Positions 7,765 to 16,345 of a stretch of DNA of 64,000 nucleotides are shown here, piece after piece; the stretch's first letter is position 1; each line of letters opens with the position of its first letter. Where the stretch lies: positions 3,504,001 through 3,568,000 of the forward strand of contig NZ_SOAU01000001.1 in assembly GCF_004364865.1 (NCBI RefSeq), given 5' to 3'. This stretch comes from Ilumatobacter fluminis (GTDB lineage: Bacteria; Actinomycetota; Acidimicrobiia; Acidimicrobiales; Ilumatobacteraceae). Both the position numbers and the translations under genes were made by a program. The notes beneath the pieces are model-generated. The model had not been told where the DNA came from. It searched no databases and saw only the letters and a list, made by a program, of their open reading frames with translations.

Positions 7765-8920
7765 GATCGAAGAACAAGCAGGCTGGGGGTTCGAGACCCT
7801 CGCCATCCACGCCGGACAGCCGGCCGACCCGTCGACCGGTGCCGTCGTCACCCCGATCTCGCTGTCGACGACGTTCGCCCAGTCAGAGGTCGGCGTCCAC
7901 CAGGGGTACGAGTACTCCCGGTCGGGCAACCCGACCCGCACCGCCGTCGAACAGCAGGTCGCCGCGCTCGAGCACGCGAAACACGGTCTCGCTTTCGCCA
8001 GCGGGCTCGCGGCCGAGGACAACATCCTCCGCCTGCTCCAACCGGGCCAGCGCATCTTGCTCGGCAACGACGCCTACGGCGGCACCTTCCGGCTGATCTC
8101 GAAGGTCTGGACCCCGCTCGGTCTCGACTGGACCGCGGTCGACCTGTCCGACCTCGACGCCGTCGCTGCCTCGTGGCCCGACGACGTCGGCATGGTCTGG
8201 CTCGAGACGCCGACCAACCCGTTGCTGACCTGCTTCGACATCGAGGCGATCGCCGAGATGGCGCACGAGCGCGACGCGCTGGTCGTGGTCGACAACACCT
8301 TCGCGACTCCCTACCTGCAGCAACCGATCACGCTCGGCGCCGACATCGTCGTCCACTCGGCGACGAAGTACCTCGGCGGTCACAGCGACGTGGTCGGCGG
8401 CTTCGTGGCCGTCGACGATGACGAGCTCGCCGAGCGAATCCGCTTCACCCAGAACGCGGCCGGTGCCGTCCCGTCACCGTTCGACTGCTACCTGGTGCTG
8501 CGGGGTGTCAAGACGCTGGGTGTCCGGATGGACCGTCACTGCGAGAACGCTCGGGCGATCGTCGACCTGCTGTCGGGCCATCGTGCGGTCGAGCGTGTGC
8601 TCTACCCGCAGCTGCCCGATCACCCGGGCCACGAGGCGGCCGCCAAGCAGATGCGCGACTACGGCGGCATGGTGAGCTTCACCCTGAAAGCCGGTGAAGC
8701 TGCGGCTCGCCGGGTGGCGGCGTCCACCGAACTCTTTACGTTGGCCGAGTCGCTCGGCGCCGTCGAGAGCCTGATCGAACACCCGGGCGCGATGACCCAC
8801 GCGAGCGCGGCCGGGTCGCCGCTCGAGGTGCCCGACAACCTCGTCCGGCTGTCGGTCGGGATCGAGCACGCCGCCGATCTCGTGGCCGACCTCGAACAGG
8901 CACTCGACACCGCTCCGTAA
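7757..8920 (+). CDS. Cystathionine gamma-synthase / gamma-lyase
   Basis: A 387-residue PLP enzyme of the Cys/Met metabolism family. The N-terminus ETLAIHAGQPADPSTGAVVTPI, the YEYSRSGNPTR segment near 50 and the PLP-lysine motif SATKYLGGHSD (K204) are diagnostic. With the upstream beta-synthase it forms a transsulfuration unit. Sequence alone does not decide between synthase (from O-acyl-homoserine) and lyase (to cysteine); next to a beta-synthase the lyase direction is plausible. ATG overlaps the upstream gene (ATGGGTGA), so translation is probably coupled. Confidence 0.92.
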   Translation: MGEIEEQAGWGFETLAIHAGQPADPSTGAVVTPISLSTTFAQSEVGVHQGYEYSRSGNPTRTAVEQQVAALEHAKHGLAFASGLAAEDNILRLLQPGQRILLGNDAYGGTFRLISKVWTPLGLDWTAVDLSDLDAVAASWPDDVGMVWLETPTNPLLTCFDIEAIAEMAHERDALVVVDNTFATPYLQQPITLGADIVVHSATKYLGGHSDVVGGFVAVDDDELAERIRFTQNAAGAVPSPFDCYLVLRGVKTLGVRMDRHCENARAIVDLLSGHRAVERVLYPQLPDHPGHEAAAKQMRDYGGMVSFTLKAGEAAARRVAASTELFTLAESLGAVESLIEHPGAMTHASAAGSPLEVPDNLVRLSVGIEHAADLVADLEQALDTAP

Positions 8921-8975
8921 CCGCGACGTGACCGGGGCGTCACCCGCTCGGGGGTTTGCCGTCCACTGGCGCGGG

Positions 8976-8981
8976 TAACGT
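8976..8981 (+). promoter_or_regulatory. -10 element, leaderless start of otsA
   Basis: TAACGT ends 7 nt before the GTG at 8989 and supports that start rather than a TTG at 8956. Confidence 0.45.
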
Positions 8982-8988
8982 CGGACAC

Positions 8989-10371
8989 GTGGCTCCCACC
9001 GAACGTCCCCTGGTCGTCGCAGCGAACCGTCTTCCGCTCGCCCGAGCCGAAGACGGCAGTTGGACCACCAGTCCGGGCGGCCTGGTCCGAGCGCTGCTGC
9101 CCACCGTGCAGGAGACCAAGGGCAGTTGGGTCGGCTGGACCGGCGAACGCGATGGACAGGCCGAGGTGGTGCACGCCGACGGGATCGATCTGTACCCGGT
9201 GCCGATCACGAGCGACGAGGTCGACCGGTACTACGAAGGGTTTTCGAACGGGACCCTCTGGCCGCTCTACCACGACGCGATCCGAGAGTCGAACTACCGC
9301 TCCGACGAATGGGACAGCTACGTCGACGTCAACCAGCGGTTCGCGATCCAGATCGCCAACATCGCCCCGCCCCACGCCGCCGTATGGGTGCACGACTACC
9401 ACTTACAGCTCGTCCCCGGGTTGCTGCGCGAACTCCGCAACGACGTCCGGATCGGGTGGTTCAACCACATCCCGTTCCCGCCGCTCGAACTGTTCCAGCG
9501 GCTGCCATGGCGGAGCGAGATCATCAAGGGCCTCCTCGGCGCCGACGTGCTCGGCTTCCAGCGCCGACAGGGCGCGCACAACTTCATGTCCGCCGCCCAG
9601 AACCTGCTCGACGCGACCGAGCTCGACGAGGGTCTGGTCCACTACGAGGGACGCAACGTCAACGTCGGCGCCTACCCGATCTCGATCGACGTCGAAGACT
9701 TCGAGCTGCAGGCGAGCGGACGTGCGACGCGCCAGCGCACGGCTCAGATCCGGAGCCGCCTCGGCGACCCGGAGGTGATCCTGCTCGGCGTCGACCGGCT
9801 CGACTACACGAAGGGCATCGGCAACCGGCTGCAGGCGTTCGGTGAACTGCTCGACCAGGGGCGTCTCGACCCCGAGCGTCACGTGCTCGTGCAGGTGGCC
9901 ACGCCCACCCGCGAGGGTGTCGAGCAGTACCAGGACGAGCGTCGTGAGATCGAACAGATCGTCGGGGAGATCAACGGGCGCCATTCCCGCCTGGGCTTCC
10001 CCGTCATCCACTACCTGTACCAGTCGCTCCCGCTCGACGAGCTGATCCCGCTCTACAGAGCCGGCGACGTCATGCTGGTGACCCCGTTCCGCGACGGCAT
10101 GAACCTCGTCGCCAAGGAGTACGTCGCCGCCCACGTCGACGGCGACGGCGTGCTGGTGCTGTCCGAGTTCACCGGTGCCGCCGACGAGCTGGGCGAGGCC
10201 CTGCTCGTCAACCCGCACGACGACCATGCGCTCCAGAACACCATCGTGCGCGCCGTCGAGATGCACCGCCACGAGCGGCGTCCGCGAATGGAAGCGATGC
10301 GGAAGCGACTCGAGACGTCGACCGTGTCGGATTGGGCGAAGTCGTTCCTCGATGTGCTGATCGACTCGTGA
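8989..10371 (+). CDS. otsA: Alpha,alpha-trehalose-phosphate synthase (UDP/GDP-forming)
   Basis: A 460-residue glycosyltransferase family 20 enzyme that makes trehalose-6-phosphate from a nucleoside-diphosphate glucose and glucose-6-phosphate. Visible motifs are [10 protein letters not shown] at the N-terminus, the SPGGLVRAL loop, the [15 protein letters not shown] segment near residue 130, HIPFPP, the [11 protein letters not shown] element near 265 and the C-terminal [15 protein letters not shown] with its nucleotide-binding residues. Length is normal for bacterial OtsA. Start chosen by the -10 at 8976. It overlaps otsB by one base (TGATG). Confidence 0.95.
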
Positions 10372-11105
10372 TGCCCGCGGTCGACATCACGCCCGAGCGG
10401 TTGGCCGCCGAGGTCGCACCGCTGCTCGGTTCGGCGCTGGTCGGGTTCGACGTCGACGGCGTGCTCGCCCCGATCGTCGAGAAGGCGCACGACGCTGCGC
10501 TGAGTCCGGGCGTGCTCGACGAGCTCGAACGCTTGGCGATGCGGGCCCGCGTCGTGATCGTGTCCGGCCGCTCGGTCGGCGACCTCGATCGGTTCGACTT
10601 CCCGCCCACGCTCGAAGTGGTCGGCAGCCACGGCCTCGAACGCCGCGGCATGCCGCCGTTGGCGCTCGACGACGACGAGCAGTACACGTTCGAACAGCTC
10701 GAACTGCTGGCCACCCGAGCCGTCGACGCGGCGGGCGACGGCGCCTGGCTCGAGTACAAGCCGGCCAGTGTCGTGATCCATGTGCGCGAAGCCGACCGCA
10801 CACTCGCCGAGCGGGCGATCGCGGCCGTCGAGAACCTGGCGAGCATGATCGACGGCGCCCACGTCAAGCACGGCCACATGGTGTGCGAGCTGCTCGCCCG
10901 CACGGGCAGCAAGGGCGAGACGATCACCGAGCTACGCGAGCCGGGTCAGCCGGTCGTGTTCCTCGGCGACGACGTCACCGACGAGAGCGTGTTCGAGGCC
11001 ATGGTCGACGGCGACCTCGGTATCCGCGTCGGCGACGGCGACACCGCAGCCGGCTACCGACTCGCCGGCCCCGACGCCGTCGTCCAGTTCCTCCACCGCC
11101 TCTGA
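10371..11105 (+). CDS. otsB: Trehalose-6-phosphate phosphatase
   Basis: A 244-residue HAD-superfamily phosphatase. Motif I is [10 protein letters not shown] near residue 24, with the Asp nucleophile and DxD arrangement. Motif II is [10 protein letters not shown], and the late motif is [15 protein letters not shown] near 198. The cap region is between, with GSHGLE. It dephosphorylates trehalose-6-phosphate made by the preceding enzyme. The ATG overlaps the otsA stop, so the two are translationally coupled. A long perfect hairpin follows 12 bp after the stop. Confidence 0.93.
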
Positions 11106-11116
11106 CCCCGCCGAAG

Positions 11117-11157
11117 GCGTGAACAAACTGCGGAACTATTCCGCAGTTTGTTCACGC
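11117..11157. terminator. Perfect 19-bp hairpin after otsB
   Basis: Arms of 19 nt (GCGTGAACAAACTGCGGAA and its exact complement) flank a 3-nt loop (CTA). There is no T-tract. The stem is as precise as families A-C and may be another repeat family, but no second copy is in the window. Terminator function is inferred from position between otsA-otsB and the next gene. Confidence 0.7.
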
Positions 11158-11204
11158 ATTGCCCGGGTGGGGGTGGGCGGAGGTGGGTCTGGGAGAATCG
11201 GGGG

Positions 11205-12215
11205 ATGAGTGGCAACACGCAGGTGCTCCTGACCGAACGGCCGAGCGGGAAGCTCGAGACGTCGAACTTCACGATCCGCGACGGCGACATGCCGACCGTC
11301 GGCGACGGCGAGGTGCTCGTGCGGAGCGTGTTGTTGTCGATCGACGCCGCCAACCGGGCGTGGATGCAGGGGGCCACCTACAAGTCGGCCGTCGAAGAAG
11401 GCGACGTGATGCACGGTGGCGCGATCGCCGAGGTGCTCGAGTCGCGCAGCGATCGCTTCGCCGAGGGCGACCTGGTGTGGGGCGAGGTCGGCTGGCAGGA
11501 GTACGCGGCGCTCGACGCCCGCCACCTGGCACCGGTCGGCGACCATCGTCCCCTCACCCACCATCTGTCGGTGCTGGGCGTCGCCGGGCTCACCGCGTAC
11601 CACGGGCTGCTCGACGTCGTCGGGATCGAGGCCGGCGAAACCTTGCTGGTGTCGGCCGCTGCCGGTTCCGTCGGCTCGCTCGTCGGCCAGATCGGGAAGA
11701 TCGCTGGCGCCCGGGTCGTCGGCATCGCCGGCGGGCCGGAGAAGTGCCAGTGGGTCGTCGACGAGCTCGGCTTCGACGCCTGCATCGACTACCGGGGCGA
11801 GAAGCTGTCGCGGGCACTGCGTGAGCACTGCCCCGACGGTGTCGACGTGTACTTCGACAACGTCGGCGGGCCGATCCTCGAAGCGGCCCTGTTCGCGATG
11901 AACCTGCACGGACGCATCTCGTGCTGCGGCGCCGTGTCGCAGTACGACTCCGACGCCCCGACCGGTCCGCGTGGCGTGCCGGGTCTGATCGTGACGAAGC
12001 GGCTGACGATGAAGGGCTTCATCGTCATGGACTACGCCGATCAGCAGGAGCGCGCGATCGCCGATCTGTCGGCGTGGGCCGCCGATGGCCGGCTGACCGT
12101 GGTCGAGGACGTGATCGACGGCCTCGAGGCAGCGCCCGACGCCCTCGTCGGCCTGCTCGCCGGCCAGAACCGAGGCAAGCGCATGGTCCGCGTCTCCCCC
12201 GACCCGGTCGGTTGA
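11205..12215 (+). CDS. Zinc-free NADP-dependent alcohol dehydrogenase-like oxidoreductase (CurA/PTGR type)
   Basis: A 336-residue medium-chain reductase. The N-terminal half has the degenerate GroES-like fold of prostaglandin-reductase/CurA proteins (VLLSIDAANRAWM, about 40-53). The Rossmann motif is LLVSAAAGSVGSLVGQIGKIAGARVVGIAGG (about 145-175), followed by DVYFDNVGGPILEAAL and the GAVSQYD loop. No structural or catalytic zinc cysteines are present. The substrate, probably an alpha,beta-unsaturated carbonyl, is unknown. The last residues Pro-Val-Gly and the TGA (12213-12215) are encoded by the left unit of the family A repeat. Confidence 0.85.
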   Translation: MSGNTQVLLTERPSGKLETSNFTIRDGDMPTVGDGEVLVRSVLLSIDAANRAWMQGATYKSAVEEGDVMHGGAIAEVLESRSDRFAEGDLVWGEVGWQEYAALDARHLAPVGDHRPLTHHLSVLGVAGLTAYHGLLDVVGIEAGETLLVSAAAGSVGSLVGQIGKIAGARVVGIAGGPEKCQWVVDELGFDACIDYRGEKLSRALREHCPDGVDVYFDNVGGPILEAALFAMNLHGRISCCGAVSQYDSDAPTGPRGVPGLIVTKRLTMKGFIVMDYADQQERAIADLSAWAADGRLTVVEDVIDGLEAAPDALVGLLAGQNRGKRMVRVSPDPVG

Positions 12216-12292: not shown

Positions 12293-14530
12293 TCAGCGGT
12301 CGACGGTGCTGAGGGTGGAGTAGCACATCTCGTCCTCGGTGCCCTCGTTCCACGTGATGTGACGTGGCTCGGGCATCGGGGCGAGTGAGCGGTCCCACGT
12401 GCACTCGACGCGGATGACGTCGCCCGGTCCGACGACGATCGTGTCGATCGGTCGGTAGTCGAACTGCCACTCGAACGCCCAGTTCGGGATGTCGAGCAGG
12501 ATCTGCTCATCGGCCGTGCCCGGATTCAGCGTCATCCGGAACGTCTCGCCGAACTCGTGCATGTGTCCGAGCACACCGACGATCTCGCCGTAGGCACTGG
12601 CACGGTGATCACACGAGGCGTAGCCGACCCCGTCGGTGTCGGCCATCATCGCCTGCAGGTCGGCGCCGCACTGGGCGATGAGCCCGTCGGGGATGATCGC
12701 GGCGAAGTCGCCGAACTTGTCGCGGATGTCGGCGATCACCGTCGCACGGTCGCACAGCGGACCGCTCTCGTCGTCGCGACACGGGATCTCTGCGGGGGCG
12801 AGGTAGGTCGTGACGACGACGTCGTCGAACGCGCCGTCGGCGGCGGCGACCTGATCGGCATCGGCGAACTCGACGTCGAGGGCGGACTCGTCGGCGGGTG
12901 CGTCGTGGTCGTAGTGGTAGTGGATCTGGGTGACGAGGAAGTCGCCGGGTTCCATCCGGATGCCGGAGCCCTCGGCATACGTCTTGGGCTGCTGCCCCGG
13001 CGCCCAGCCACCGATCTGCTCGGTTCCACGCAAACCGGCGAGTCCGAAGCACGGCCAACCCGGGGCCTCGTCGCGTGCGTCGAGCGCTCGTGCGTCGTCC
13101 ATCACGGCAGCGTCGGCACGGAAGAAGATCGCGTGGTGGACGATCTCGACCTGGTCGGGGACGATCGTGTAGCCCGTGATCCAGCGGGTGTCGTCGGCGG
13201 GCGGCATCTCGTAGATCTGGCAGCGATAGTCGTCGCGCTGATCGACCGAGCCGGTGTACGGCTCGGCAGCCACGGTGACGTCGGCGTCGAGTGGGACGAC
13301 GATCGCATTACGCGGCTCCAACCCCGTCGACGGTTCGACGTCGACGGCACCGTCGGCCTCGGCCCACGCTGCGATCTCGGCGATCTGCTCGTCGGAGAGC
13401 GACCAGTCGTGTTCGAAGTCGACCGACAGGTCGCTGGCCGTCCACGGCGGCATGTAGCGCGACTCGGTGACGAGGGCGATGTCGGCAGCGACCGCTGCGA
13501 CGTCGGCGATGGTGGCGAACTCGACGGTTGCTGCGCCCGGTCCGCCAGGCACGTGGCACGAGGCGCAGTGGGTCTCGATGGTGGGGAGCACCGCCGCGGA
13601 GAAGCGCGCGGTGTCGTAGGCCGGCTCGACCGTGGTCGTCGGCGCTGCCGCGGCGTCGTCGGGCGCCGAGGTCGCAGCGGGTTGCGTGGTGTCGATCGGA
13701 GCGGGATCGCCGGCCAGCTCGAACTCGTCCAGCTCGTCGACGGCGCCGCTCGGTACGGCCACGAGGGAGAACGTGAGCTCGACCTCGTCGCTGGTCGACA
13801 CCAGCCCGGAGATCGCGATCGGCCCCACGTCGTAGGTCGACATCAGCGCCGTGGTCGACATCTCGGCGGTCAGCCGGTCGTCGTCGATGCGGACCCAGCC
13901 ACCGAACGTCTCGGTCGCCGTCGTCTCCTTCACGGTCAAATCGCCCGTGATCTCGACCGGGATGCGCTGACCGTCGGTCGATCGGTCGGGCAGGCCCTCG
14001 ACGCTGGTCGGGACGAAGGTGGCGTACGGGTACTCGGTCGATTCGAGGAAGTCGTGCCGGATCCGCTTGTCGCGCAGGGTGGAATCGGACTCGAACCGTT
14101 CGACGTTGACGACGATCGTGCCGAGCACGGAGTCGGACGGGGTCTCGCGGTCGACGGCGATCTCACCGGCCAACACCGTCGTGGTGCCGACCGCGGTCGA
14201 ATCGCTCCCGCCCAACCGCTCGTCGATGCGGTAGGTCACCTGCGACCCATCGACGAGCACGAACCGTTCCGACCCGTCGGCGACCTCGACGGGCGGGGCC
14301 TCGGCGCCGTCCGAGCGGACCGTGCCGTCGGCGAGCAGCCAGTCCCACTCGTCGGCGGTGAACCACGCGCCGAACGCCACCGCCGCGGCCACGACCGGCA
14401 CACCGAACATGAGGGCGGTCGGTGGGCGCGACGACGCCTCGCGATGCATCGCTCGCCACGACCACGCGAACGCCACGACGGCCGCGAGGATCAGGACGAC
14501 CACGATCAGGGTCGCCCAGTTCCACCCCAT
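12293..14530 (-). CDS. Membrane-anchored YceI / cytochrome c / copper type II monooxygenase-like fusion
   Basis: A 745-residue protein with, in order: one or two N-terminal transmembrane helices (about 3-25 and 38-55); a YceI-like domain (about 85-265, with TYRIDERLGG, RDKRIRHDFLESTEYPYATFV and the closing LTFSL strand); a Pro/Thr/Ala linker; a monoheme cytochrome-like segment with CASCH (C322, C325, H326) and a Met in ESRYMPPW; and a C-terminal region of about 350 residues with IVHHAIFF, QIHYHYDHD and GHMHEFGETF. The last is the pattern of PHM/DBM-type copper type II monooxygenases. Export and electron transfer to the copper domain are inference. GTG at 14554 is an alternative start giving 753 residues. 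Confidence 0.75.
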   Translation of the reverse strand: MGWNWATLIVVVLILAAVVAFAWSWRAMHREASSRPPTALMFGVPVVAAAVAFGAWFTADEWDWLLADGTVRSDGAEAPPVEVADGSERFVLVDGSQVTYRIDERLGGSDSTAVGTTTVLAGEIAVDRETPSDSVLGTIVVNVERFESDSTLRDKRIRHDFLESTEYPYATFVPTSVEGLPDRSTDGQRIPVEITGDLTVKETTATETFGGWVRIDDDRLTAEMSTTALMSTYDVGPIAISGLVSTSDEVELTFSLVAVPSGAVDELDEFELAGDPAPIDTTQPAATSAPDDAAAAPTTTVEPAYDTARFSAAVLPTIETHCASCHVPGGPGAATVEFATIADVAAVAADIALVTESRYMPPWTASDLSVDFEHDWSLSDEQIAEIAAWAEADGAVDVEPSTGLEPRNAIVVPLDADVTVAAEPYTGSVDQRDDYRCQIYEMPPADDTRWITGYTIVPDQVEIVHHAIFFRADAAVMDDARALDARDEAPGWPCFGLAGLRGTEQIGGWAPGQQPKTYAEGSGIRMEPGDFLVTQIHYHYDHDAPADESALDVEFADADQVAAADGAFDDVVVTTYLAPAEIPCRDDESGPLCDRATVIADIRDKFGDFAAIIPDGLIAQCGADLQAMMADTDGVGYASCDHRASAYGEIVGVLGHMHEFGETFRMTLNPGTADEQILLDIPNWAFEWQFDYRPIDTIVVGPGDVIRVECTWDRSLAPMPEPRHITWNEGTEDEMCYSTLSTVDR

Positions 14531-14576
14531 CGACGACGTCAGGTGTGCCAGCACCCGGACGACGTTAGTGGAGCCG

Positions 14577-14715
14577 GTCGGATGAGGTCAGACCCCAACC
14601 GACCACCCGATGGCGTGGGTCCGAGCATCCGTGTCGGATGAGGTCAGACCCCAACCGACCACCCGATGGCGTGGGTCCGAGCATCCGTGTCGGTTGGGGT
14701 CTGACCTCATCCGAC
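14577..14715. repeat. Repeat array, family C (copy 1, three units)
   Basis: Two direct units (14577-14603 and 14633-14659) are followed by an inverted unit (14689-14715), all 56 bp apart, with two identical 29-nt spacers (14604-14632 and 14660-14688). Each unit begins GTCGGATGAGGT and keeps the GTCAGAC core, but its arms pair imperfectly. The RNase HII stop codon abuts the last unit. Family C differs from family A at a few arm positions and is clearly related. Confidence 0.9.
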
Positions 14716-15478: not shown

Positions 15479-16345
15479 ATGTCGCGCACACGGTTCCACA
15501 CGGTGCTCCGCACCCTCATCGGCGGATCGGTGGTGATGTCGCTCGCTGCCGCGTGCGGTGACGATGCCGTGTCGACCCCGACGTCGACGACGGCCATCAC
15601 GACGACACCCACCACCGCACCGACCACGACGCCCGAGACGACGCCCACCACCGCACCGACCACGGTGCCCGAGACGACGATGCCGGCCACGACAGCCCCA
15701 CCCACGACAGCCGCGCCGACCACCGTCGCTCCCACGACCGTCGTCCCGACGACCACACCGCCGACGACCGTTCCGGTCGTCGAGCCGGTCGTCGCGGTCT
15801 GGCCTGCCGCCGAGGTCGTGTTCGACACTCCCGAGGAAGCAGCGTCCGACTTCATCGAGCAGGTCTTCGGCGTCGAACCGCTGATCGGCGAGTTCATGCA
15901 GGGCGACGGTCGCAGCGGCGAGATCGAGGTCCTGAGCCCGCTCGACGACGACGACCCGGCGACCACACGGCCGACGGGCGTGATCCTGTTCATGCGCCAG
16001 CTCGGCGCCGACGACGGCTGGTTCGTCCTGTCGGCGACGAGTGAGGGTGTCACGATCGACGTGCCCGAGTTCGGCGACGAGGTCACCGCAGGCGACCTCA
16101 CGGTCGACGGCCTCGGCCGCGGCTTCGAGGGCACGGTCGTCGTGCGGGCGCTGATACCGGCCGATCCGCCGGAGGTGCTCGATTTCGAGATCACGGCGAC
16201 CGACTGGACGACACCGGTGCCCTACACCGCCACCCTCGATCTGAGCGCGACCTCGCCCGGTGACGTCGTCACGATCGTCGCGGTCGGCGACACCGGCATC
16301 GCTGCCACCGGCGAGTTCGCCGCGACCGCGGTCGTCGTCGGTTGA
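15479..16345 (+). CDS. Secreted lipoprotein with Thr/Pro linker and Gmad2-like domain
   Basis: A 288-residue protein with a signal peptide ending in lipobox LAAAC (Cys about residue 26), then about 75 residues almost entirely Thr, Pro and Ala. A globular domain of about 180 residues ends with an immunoglobulin-like region (SGEIEVLSPL near 140, then alternating strands). The end resembles Gmad2-type domains of spore and cell-envelope lipoproteins, but that assignment is tentative. Probably anchored on the outer face of the membrane. The last codons GTC GGT TGA match the family A repeat over nine bases, followed by a hairpin. Confidence 0.7.
   Translation: MSRTRFHTVLRTLIGGSVVMSLAAACGDDAVSTPTSTTAITTTPTTAPTTTPETTPTTAPTTVPETTMPATTAPPTTAAPTTVAPTTVVPTTTPPTTVPVVEPVVAVWPAAEVVFDTPEEAASDFIEQVFGVEPLIGEFMQGDGRSGEIEVLSPLDDDDPATTRPTGVILFMRQLGADDGWFVLSATSEGVTIDVPEFGDEVTAGDLTVDGLGRGFEGTVVVRALIPADPPEVLDFEITATDWTTPVPYTATLDLSATSPGDVVTIVAVGDTGIAATGEFAATAVVVG

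Follow-up and report, generated by a model that had tools for sequence, protein, structure and literature searches.

A single gene in the window (the whole 64,000-nucleotide stretch of DNA analysed here) encodes a chain that starts with a predicted membrane anchor and continues with a lipocalin domain of the YceI family, a c-type cytochrome domain for one heme and a dicopper monooxygenase core of the PHM/DBH type. The identities of the three domains are nearly certain. Their combination suggests an oxygenase with a built-in electron supply, and the reading that we prefer, to which we give a probability of about one half, is that of an extracytoplasmic, membrane-tethered type II copper monooxygenase of the PHM/DBH fold with its own electron feed, provided by heme c and, less surely, by quinol binding at YceI. 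The parts of the fusion are familiar but their arrangement is new, and no description of the YceI-cytochrome-PHM architecture was recognised in the open-access PMC literature among the matches listed.

The dicopper core is related to an enzyme that helps to make the peptide hormones of animals, and electron delivery to the CuH site in PHM/DBH enzymes has usually been studied with ascorbate. A natural heme fusion would render electron transfer to CuH directly visible by spectroscopy. YceI would acquire a set position in a redox pathway, something that the YceI-cytochrome protein Cbp2D of Cellvibrio has not settled, and the Acidimicrobiia, a group of little-studied bacteria that hosts the fusion, would gain an extracytoplasmic oxygenase linked to respiration.

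Gene structure and domain organization

The reading frame is uninterrupted across 12293-14530 on the minus strand, and the positions of its motifs were confirmed from the DNA. The features are as follows.

12293..14530 (-): fusion gene, 745 amino acids, anchor - YceI - cytochrome c - PHM-like dicopper core; start uncertain
14438..14518 (-): first of two hydrophobic helices predicted at the N-terminus, residues 5-31 (AF2 secondary structure and hydropathy); unusual among orthologues
14360..14416 (-): residues 39-57, predicted to anchor the protein in the membrane; equivalent to the one anchor that orthologues have
13745..14275 (-): YceI lipocalin domain, residues 86-262 (PF04264, fold and PDB profile)
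13616..13744 (-): variable linker rich in Pro, Thr and Ala, residues 263-305 (mean identity to 26 orthologues 21%; 0/43 columns invariant)
13331..13615 (-): monoheme c-type cytochrome domain, residues 306-400 (PF13442 and weak PDB profile matches)
13553..13567 (-): CASCH heme attachment motif, residues 322-326
13451..13453 (-): Met360 of YMPPW, probable distal heme ligand
12296..13288 (-): PHM/DBH-type dicopper monooxygenase core, residues 415-745 (PDB profile, Foldseek, VIA)
13133..13138 (-): His465-His466, CuH ligands (H107 and H108 of rat PHM)
12920..12922 (-): His537, third CuH ligand (H172 of rat PHM)
12914..12916 (-): His539, two positions downstream of His537 (Asn in heme-less relatives)
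12557..12565 (-): His656-Met-His658, CuM ligands
12326..12328 (-): Met735 in DEMC, CuM ligand

Three start codons are candidates, at 14554 (GTG), 14530 (ATG) and 14449 (ATG), the last of which matches the orthologue starts in alignment A1. An upstream start is favoured because GC3 is high from about 14560 onward; it would give the protein two predicted N-terminal helices, whereas nearly all orthologues have one.

A preliminary description of this DNA had placed YceI, cytochrome and copper domains in one protein, and Pfam, family profiles and modelled folds bear this out. The order that it gave, YceI - cytochrome - PHM, is conserved in 50 distinct fusion sequences. When each domain was searched by profile, as that description had proposed, YceI stood above its Pfam cut-off, and the copper and cytochrome domains were supported by family profiles. 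Pfam was dropped as the sole basis for the assignments since its scores for the copper and cytochrome domains are near their cut-offs or beneath them, and the family profiles were used instead. The AF2 model of the whole protein is of modest confidence (pLDDT 72, pTM 0.61).

Orthologues, distribution and history

The contig scan returned 26 orthologues aligned across YceI, cytochrome and PHM, with 41-50% identity. The titles of 23 name Acidimicrobiia or a lower group (Acidimicrobiales, Acidimicrobiaceae, Microthrixaceae), and the other three read Actinomyces sp., Actinomycetota bacterium and bacterium. The contig scan, the genome searches and 60 fetched regions together gave 88 PHM-type frames, of which 59 are YceI-cytochrome-PHM (26 from contigs and 33 from regions), 13 are cytochrome-PHM and 16 are PHM only; 79 are distinct (50, 13 and 16, respectively). 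No frame with YceI and PHM but without the cytochrome was found among those fetched. The cytochrome c-PHM proteins, which are lipoprotein-like, and the heme-less PHM-like proteins come mostly from Acidimicrobiia and have the PHM subfamily in common with the fusion; the former differ in lacking YceI, the latter in lacking both YceI and cytochrome and in carrying Asn in place of His539.

A profile of the PHM domain (A3, nine rows of the C-terminal domain) matched 55 of 395 genomes of the class and 15 of 396 in a sample of the phylum. Pfam PF01082 had been tried as a survey probe and was rejected: it matched 25/395 class genomes and missed the genome of the fusion gene itself (G000), which makes it a poor detector here, so A3 was used instead. 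In the genome search PF01082 also matched below cut-off in the E. coli control. The fusion was absent from 9/9 sampled genomes of the same genus, six of which matched in the YceI part alone, while the remaining three, which are 74-81% complete, gave no match. The fusion was surveyed within the Actinomycetota; cytochrome c-PHM proteins exist in other phyla.

In a quick tree built from 78 PHM domains, a branch with full support sets the 15 heme-less proteins apart, and the 13 heme proteins without YceI are nested in the YceI-bearing group, which makes three changes in all. With the root placed on the heme-less side, this implies either two losses of YceI or a single loss followed by a regain in the group of the fusion gene; some of the branches behind this history have support of only 88-94.

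Multiple copies also occur. One genome carries YceI-cytochrome-PHM genes in tandem (L127:6784-9048 and 9540-11762), and PHM-profile matches number two to five per genome in one family, f22 (G345, G422, G406 and G267). The f22 matches that were fetched are heme-less, suggesting an expansion of a secreted copper monooxygenase family.

The copper monooxygenase core

Pfam recognises the C-terminal domain weakly. Against the whole protein, Cu2_monooxygen (PF01082) gives E 7.9e-6 and 26.5 bits for a cut-off of 30 bits (30.5 bits in the genome search), and Cu2_monoox_C (PF03712) gives E 0.15 and 12 bits for a cut-off of 23, a cut-off that three heme-less relatives pass and one cytochrome-PHM relative fails. 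The A3 profile matches rat PHM (E 7.8e-9) and human DBH (E 3.9e-6) in the PDB, and its alignment to rat PHM places the HH pair, the histidine of HY and the methionine of DEMC. Foldseek matched the whole-protein model to 1opm (E 1.2e-12), and VIA aligned residues 415-745 to PHM with Z 20.6 (254 residues, 2.8 A) and to DBH with Z 18.9, at about 16% identity to PHM structures.

The likeness to PHM (part of PAM) and DBH extends over the fold of residues 415-745, the CuH pattern HH...H, the CuM pattern HxH...M, a set of conserved cysteines and predicted export. We take His656 and His658 to correspond to the CuM ligands H242 and H244 of rat PHM, and Met735 to M314. His537 and His656 are 119 residues apart, a longer spacing than in PHM, where it is presumably 70 residues between the corresponding histidines. 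On the CuH side, His465, His466 and His537 align with H107, H108 and H172, which are the CuH ligands of rat PHM according to PMC6123673. All six ligands (H465, H466, H537, H656, H658 and M735) are present in 87/87 complete frames, that is in 78/78 complete distinct sequences, and eight cysteines are likewise kept across these 78; the 88th frame (L174) is a fragment and keeps the three copper ligands within its span. The histidine-rich motifs of copper type II monooxygenases noted in the preliminary description are thus real and conserved. It had also considered that the C-terminal region might prove to be without copper ligands; alignment found them conserved, and the copper reading stands. 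PAL, DOMON and the other animal partner domains of PHM and DBH are missing from the protein's Pfam list, and no CBM or LPMO family was found in it by Pfam at E up to 1.

Several columns of the core distinguish heme-bearing from heme-less proteins. Position 539 is His in 63/63 distinct heme-bearing sequences and Asn in 15/15 complete heme-less ones; a heme-less Nonomuraea protein has Asn as well. Trp712 and Arg714 are fixed in the same 63/63 and changed in 15/15, Trp684 is fixed in 63/63 and changed in 14/15, and Trp688 is fixed in 63/63 and changed in at least 14/15. From their pattern in the alignment, His539 and the Trp and Arg columns would be natural candidates for a path from heme to CuH, and could equally reflect general divergence. 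Repeated co-evolution of His539 with the heme was considered and rejected: heme-bearing and heme-less proteins separate only once on the tree, and the correlations at His539 and the Trp columns therefore count as one event.

The cytochrome domain and cytochrome c maturation

The Cytochrome_CBB3 match of the whole protein is below the Pfam cut-off (E 7.4e-4). PF13442 matched the cytochrome region of 22/22 members at E <= 0.01, with a best value of 2.6e-8; the cytochrome of the fusion gene itself gave E 7e-6 and 26.7 bits, just short of the cut-off of 27. A cytochrome profile found weak matches to c-type cytochrome subunits in the PDB (E 1.8e-4 to 4.6e-3), bc1 cytochrome c subunits among them. 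C..CH is present in 72/72 cytochrome-bearing frames, so the CASCH motif pointed out in the preliminary description is conserved among orthologues, a matter on which that reading depended. The putative distal ligand Met360 is invariant in alignments A1 and A2; across the 72 frames the motif is MPPW in 69 and MPPF or MPPS in three, with the methionine in every one. As far as its motifs indicate, the domain is a His/Met c-type cytochrome. Modelled alone by AF2 it is poor (pLDDT 52), and only the order of its helices fits cytochrome c. The fold searches with the whole protein gave no cytochrome match among the matches listed, which is no evidence against the cytochrome identity.

In 11 loci of a related group, a ccm block is followed immediately, on the same strand, by the fusion gene, with the YceI domain starting 164-266 bp past the end of the upstream TPR frame. 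The block contains CcmC, CcmE, CcmF, a CcmG-type redoxin and a TPR protein, some of which were unseen in some loci (Pfam names taken from L145, L130, L004 and L129). This adjacency supports true heme attachment. The fusion gene's own genome has one CcmE match and two Cytochrom_C_asm matches, from which it appears that heme can be attached there too. Co-occurrence with ccm at the level of genomes was rejected as a signal since CcmE is found in 355/395 class genomes, and only adjacency was used. Given this near-universal occurrence, and given a distance of about 160 kb between the fusion gene and the Cytochrom_C_asm genes in its own genome, the ccm system is not dedicated to the fusion protein.

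The YceI domain and the membrane anchor

YceI is the domain best recognised by Pfam, with a PF04264 match in the whole protein of E 2.6e-17 and 64 bits (cut-off 23.7). Its PDB profile matches 1y0g (8.6e-8) and 1wub (1.4e-6), and residues 88-266 of the AF2 model match the polyisoprenoid-binding protein TT1927b (1wub) with Z 18.3 and the Saccharophagus polyisoprenoid-binding domain 2x32 with Z 15.4. The likeness to TT1927b of Thermus, E. coli YceI and Saccharophagus X158 is thus one of fold (Z 15-18), and the stretch RD..(I/L)R..DFL...yP.a.F is common to polyisoprenoid-binding YceI proteins and the fusion; unlike the fusion, the matched chains are without a copper core. Mean identity to the 26 orthologues is 57% for YceI, 53% for the cytochrome, 49% for the copper core and 21-23% for the linkers, and invariant columns number 33/177 in YceI and 0/43 and 1/58 in the linkers. 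Judged on sequence conservation, all three modules are constrained.

The heme-copper core can do without YceI, since both the heme motif and the full set of copper ligands are retained in the group that lacks it. No separate YceI gene that could substitute for the missing domain was found with the YceI profile beside the 13 cytochrome-PHM genes in the fetched regions. A separate YceI protein was observed elsewhere, about 5 kb from the fusion gene of another locus and on the opposite strand (L018:14-961, minus).

The protein had also been described as membrane-anchored, and hydropathy and AF2 secondary structure agree in predicting an anchor, which is conserved. Stop-to-stop frames were also put through a simple test of hydropathy and sequence pattern, which is indicative only. 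It found a predicted hydrophobic helix before YceI in 57/59 YceI forms and a lipobox-like motif in 13/13 heme forms without YceI; of the 16 heme-less forms, 12 have a hydrophobic helix at the N-terminus that may be a signal peptide, and one has a lipobox-like match. The heme forms without YceI therefore look like lipoproteins on the pattern test. Nor is a lipid anchor confined to the heme forms, because the heme-less Nonomuraea protein has a lipobox-like start, as judged by eye.

Insights into function

The mechanism that we propose is a relay within one chain, from quinol or another donor to heme c, then to CuH and on to CuM. Heme c would pass electrons to CuH and so replace ascorbate, and CuM would activate O2 for hydroxylation of a substrate outside the membrane; we infer both steps fairly strongly. 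The transfer from heme to copper is well motivated, and we consider it rather probable. The first step is put forward more weakly: YceI, placed between anchor and heme in the chain, may bind a respiratory quinol or other polyisoprenoid in its cup at the membrane and feed the heme. That YceI is a quinol site is a tentative assignment, with the odds somewhat against it, and it is doubtful whether the protein is a fully self-sufficient PHM/DBH-type monooxygenase, in which the respiratory quinone pool would drive extracytoplasmic hydroxylation through YceI and heme c without ascorbate. The looser proposal of the preliminary description, that a bound isoprenoid or quinone is coupled to hydroxylation, is plausible by analogy.

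In PHM, ascorbate is the reductant and gives one reducing equivalent per copper, as described in PMC6123673; the fusion has a c-type cytochrome domain joined in the chain. By analogy, the nearest precedent appears to be Cbp2D of Cellvibrio japonicus. According to PMC8981238, Cbp2D and Cbp2E carry CBM2 and YceI/X158 domains, Cbp2D also the cytochromes X183 and X132, and isolated X183 reduces copper LPMOs, rather slowly. The YceI-like domain of Cbp2D is of a type crystallised with ubiquinone-8 (PMC8981238, PMC10154616). Cbp2D and the fusion thus resemble each other in having a YceI-like lipocalin and a c-type cytochrome in one secreted protein tied to a copper monooxygenase. As Cbp2D is described in PMC8981238, the LPMO is separate and there is a cellulose-binding module, whereas the fusion carries a PHM-type copper enzyme in the same chain. 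Being without CBM2 and a separate LPMO, the fusion is not classed with the Cbp2D-type donors, and the likeness is a comparison of how the proteins may work. The authors of deletion work in Cellvibrio propose, in PMC12542752, that Cbp2D and Cbp2E do more than electron transfer.

The preferred reading, a tethered copper monooxygenase with its own electron feed, is supported by the PHM and YceI folds, the cytochrome family profile, the kept copper ligands and heme motif, the adjacency to ccm in 11 loci and the membrane-tethered look of the heme forms. It is further supported by the His539 and Trp columns that mark the heme forms, by a conservation of YceI equal to or above that of the copper core, and by the precedent of Cbp2D, in which PMC8981238 describes a YceI-like domain with c-type cytochromes, one of them reducing copper LPMOs. 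We counted against it the modest confidence of the AF2 model, which yields no distance between heme and copper, the poor model of the cytochrome domain alone, the unrelated gene neighbours, the distant Cytochrom_C_asm genes, a CcmE that is not special to the fusion protein, correlations that come from a single split, and, from what is reported of Cbp2D and Cbp2E, the slow transfer from cytochrome to LPMO and the additional roles proposed. YceI is not the sole electron source across the family, because cytochrome-PHM members without it keep all else.

This optional occurrence also bears on two other views of YceI, both of which we consider unlikely. The domain may hold the substrate, not the reductant, presenting a polyisoprenoid lipid (a carotenoid, a polyprenol or a quinone side chain) to the PHM core for hydroxylation, with the heme fed by a bc1 branch or a soluble cytochrome. 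Known YceI proteins do bind polyisoprenoids (title of 1wub; PMC8981238, as far as that source describes them), bc1 cytochrome c subunits are among the weak matches of the cytochrome profile, and a substrate module could well be optional; yet the members without YceI retain the whole core, so that their substrate must reach the copper otherwise, and no isoprenoid-pathway gene was found among the annotated neighbour clusters, a subset. Alternatively, YceI may be a mere adaptor or spacer at the membrane surface, the working unit being a cytochrome c-PHM pair fed by general periplasmic carriers. In its favour, the fetched regions contain 62 PHM frames, and 13 of these pair the cytochrome with PHM but have no YceI; all 13 are lipobox-like, and they are nested inside the YceI-bearing group on the tree. 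A spacer should drift, however, as the linkers do, whereas YceI is at least as conserved as the catalytic domain (57% against 49%, with 33/177 columns invariant).

It is improbable that the protein is no monooxygenase at all, and that a redox or metal device (a copper or O2 sensor, a copper store, an electron-burning oxidase) has been built on the PHM scaffold. The low identity of the core to PHM structures (about 16%) and the absence of a known substrate would allow it, but six ligands and eight cysteines kept in 78 complete distinct sequences fit catalysis better. A merger of unrelated genes by a sequencing or assembly error can be dismissed: no point in its support was found, and the orthologues rule it out, since many assemblies yield the identical domain order, with 50 distinct fusion sequences in all.

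Gene neighbourhood in the window

The neighbours of the fusion gene in the window are, by Pfam, a trehalose-phosphate synthase and a trehalose-phosphate phosphatase, a zinc-type dehydrogenase, RNase HII, CMD and an AIR-synthase-type protein; they are unrelated to it and give no functional lead. A cluster of RCC1-repeat proteins stands beside the fusion gene in several related loci, and in one of them such proteins lie on either side of it (L012:3918-5645 and 7996-9576).

Between the fusion gene and RNase HII (window 14577-14715), the 24-mer GGTTGGGGTCTGACCTCATCCGAC occurs three times, in both orientations. The genome holds 64 copies with at most one mismatch, many of them paired in inverted orientation at a spacing of about 60 bp, and the reversed control gave 0; GGTTGGGGTCTGACCTCATCCGAC is a dispersed palindromic (REP/MITE-like) element. 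At 15479-16345 the window also encodes a protein that is rich in Thr and Pro and probably secreted; its Gmad2-like domain scores 25.3 bits, just short of the cut-off of 25.7.
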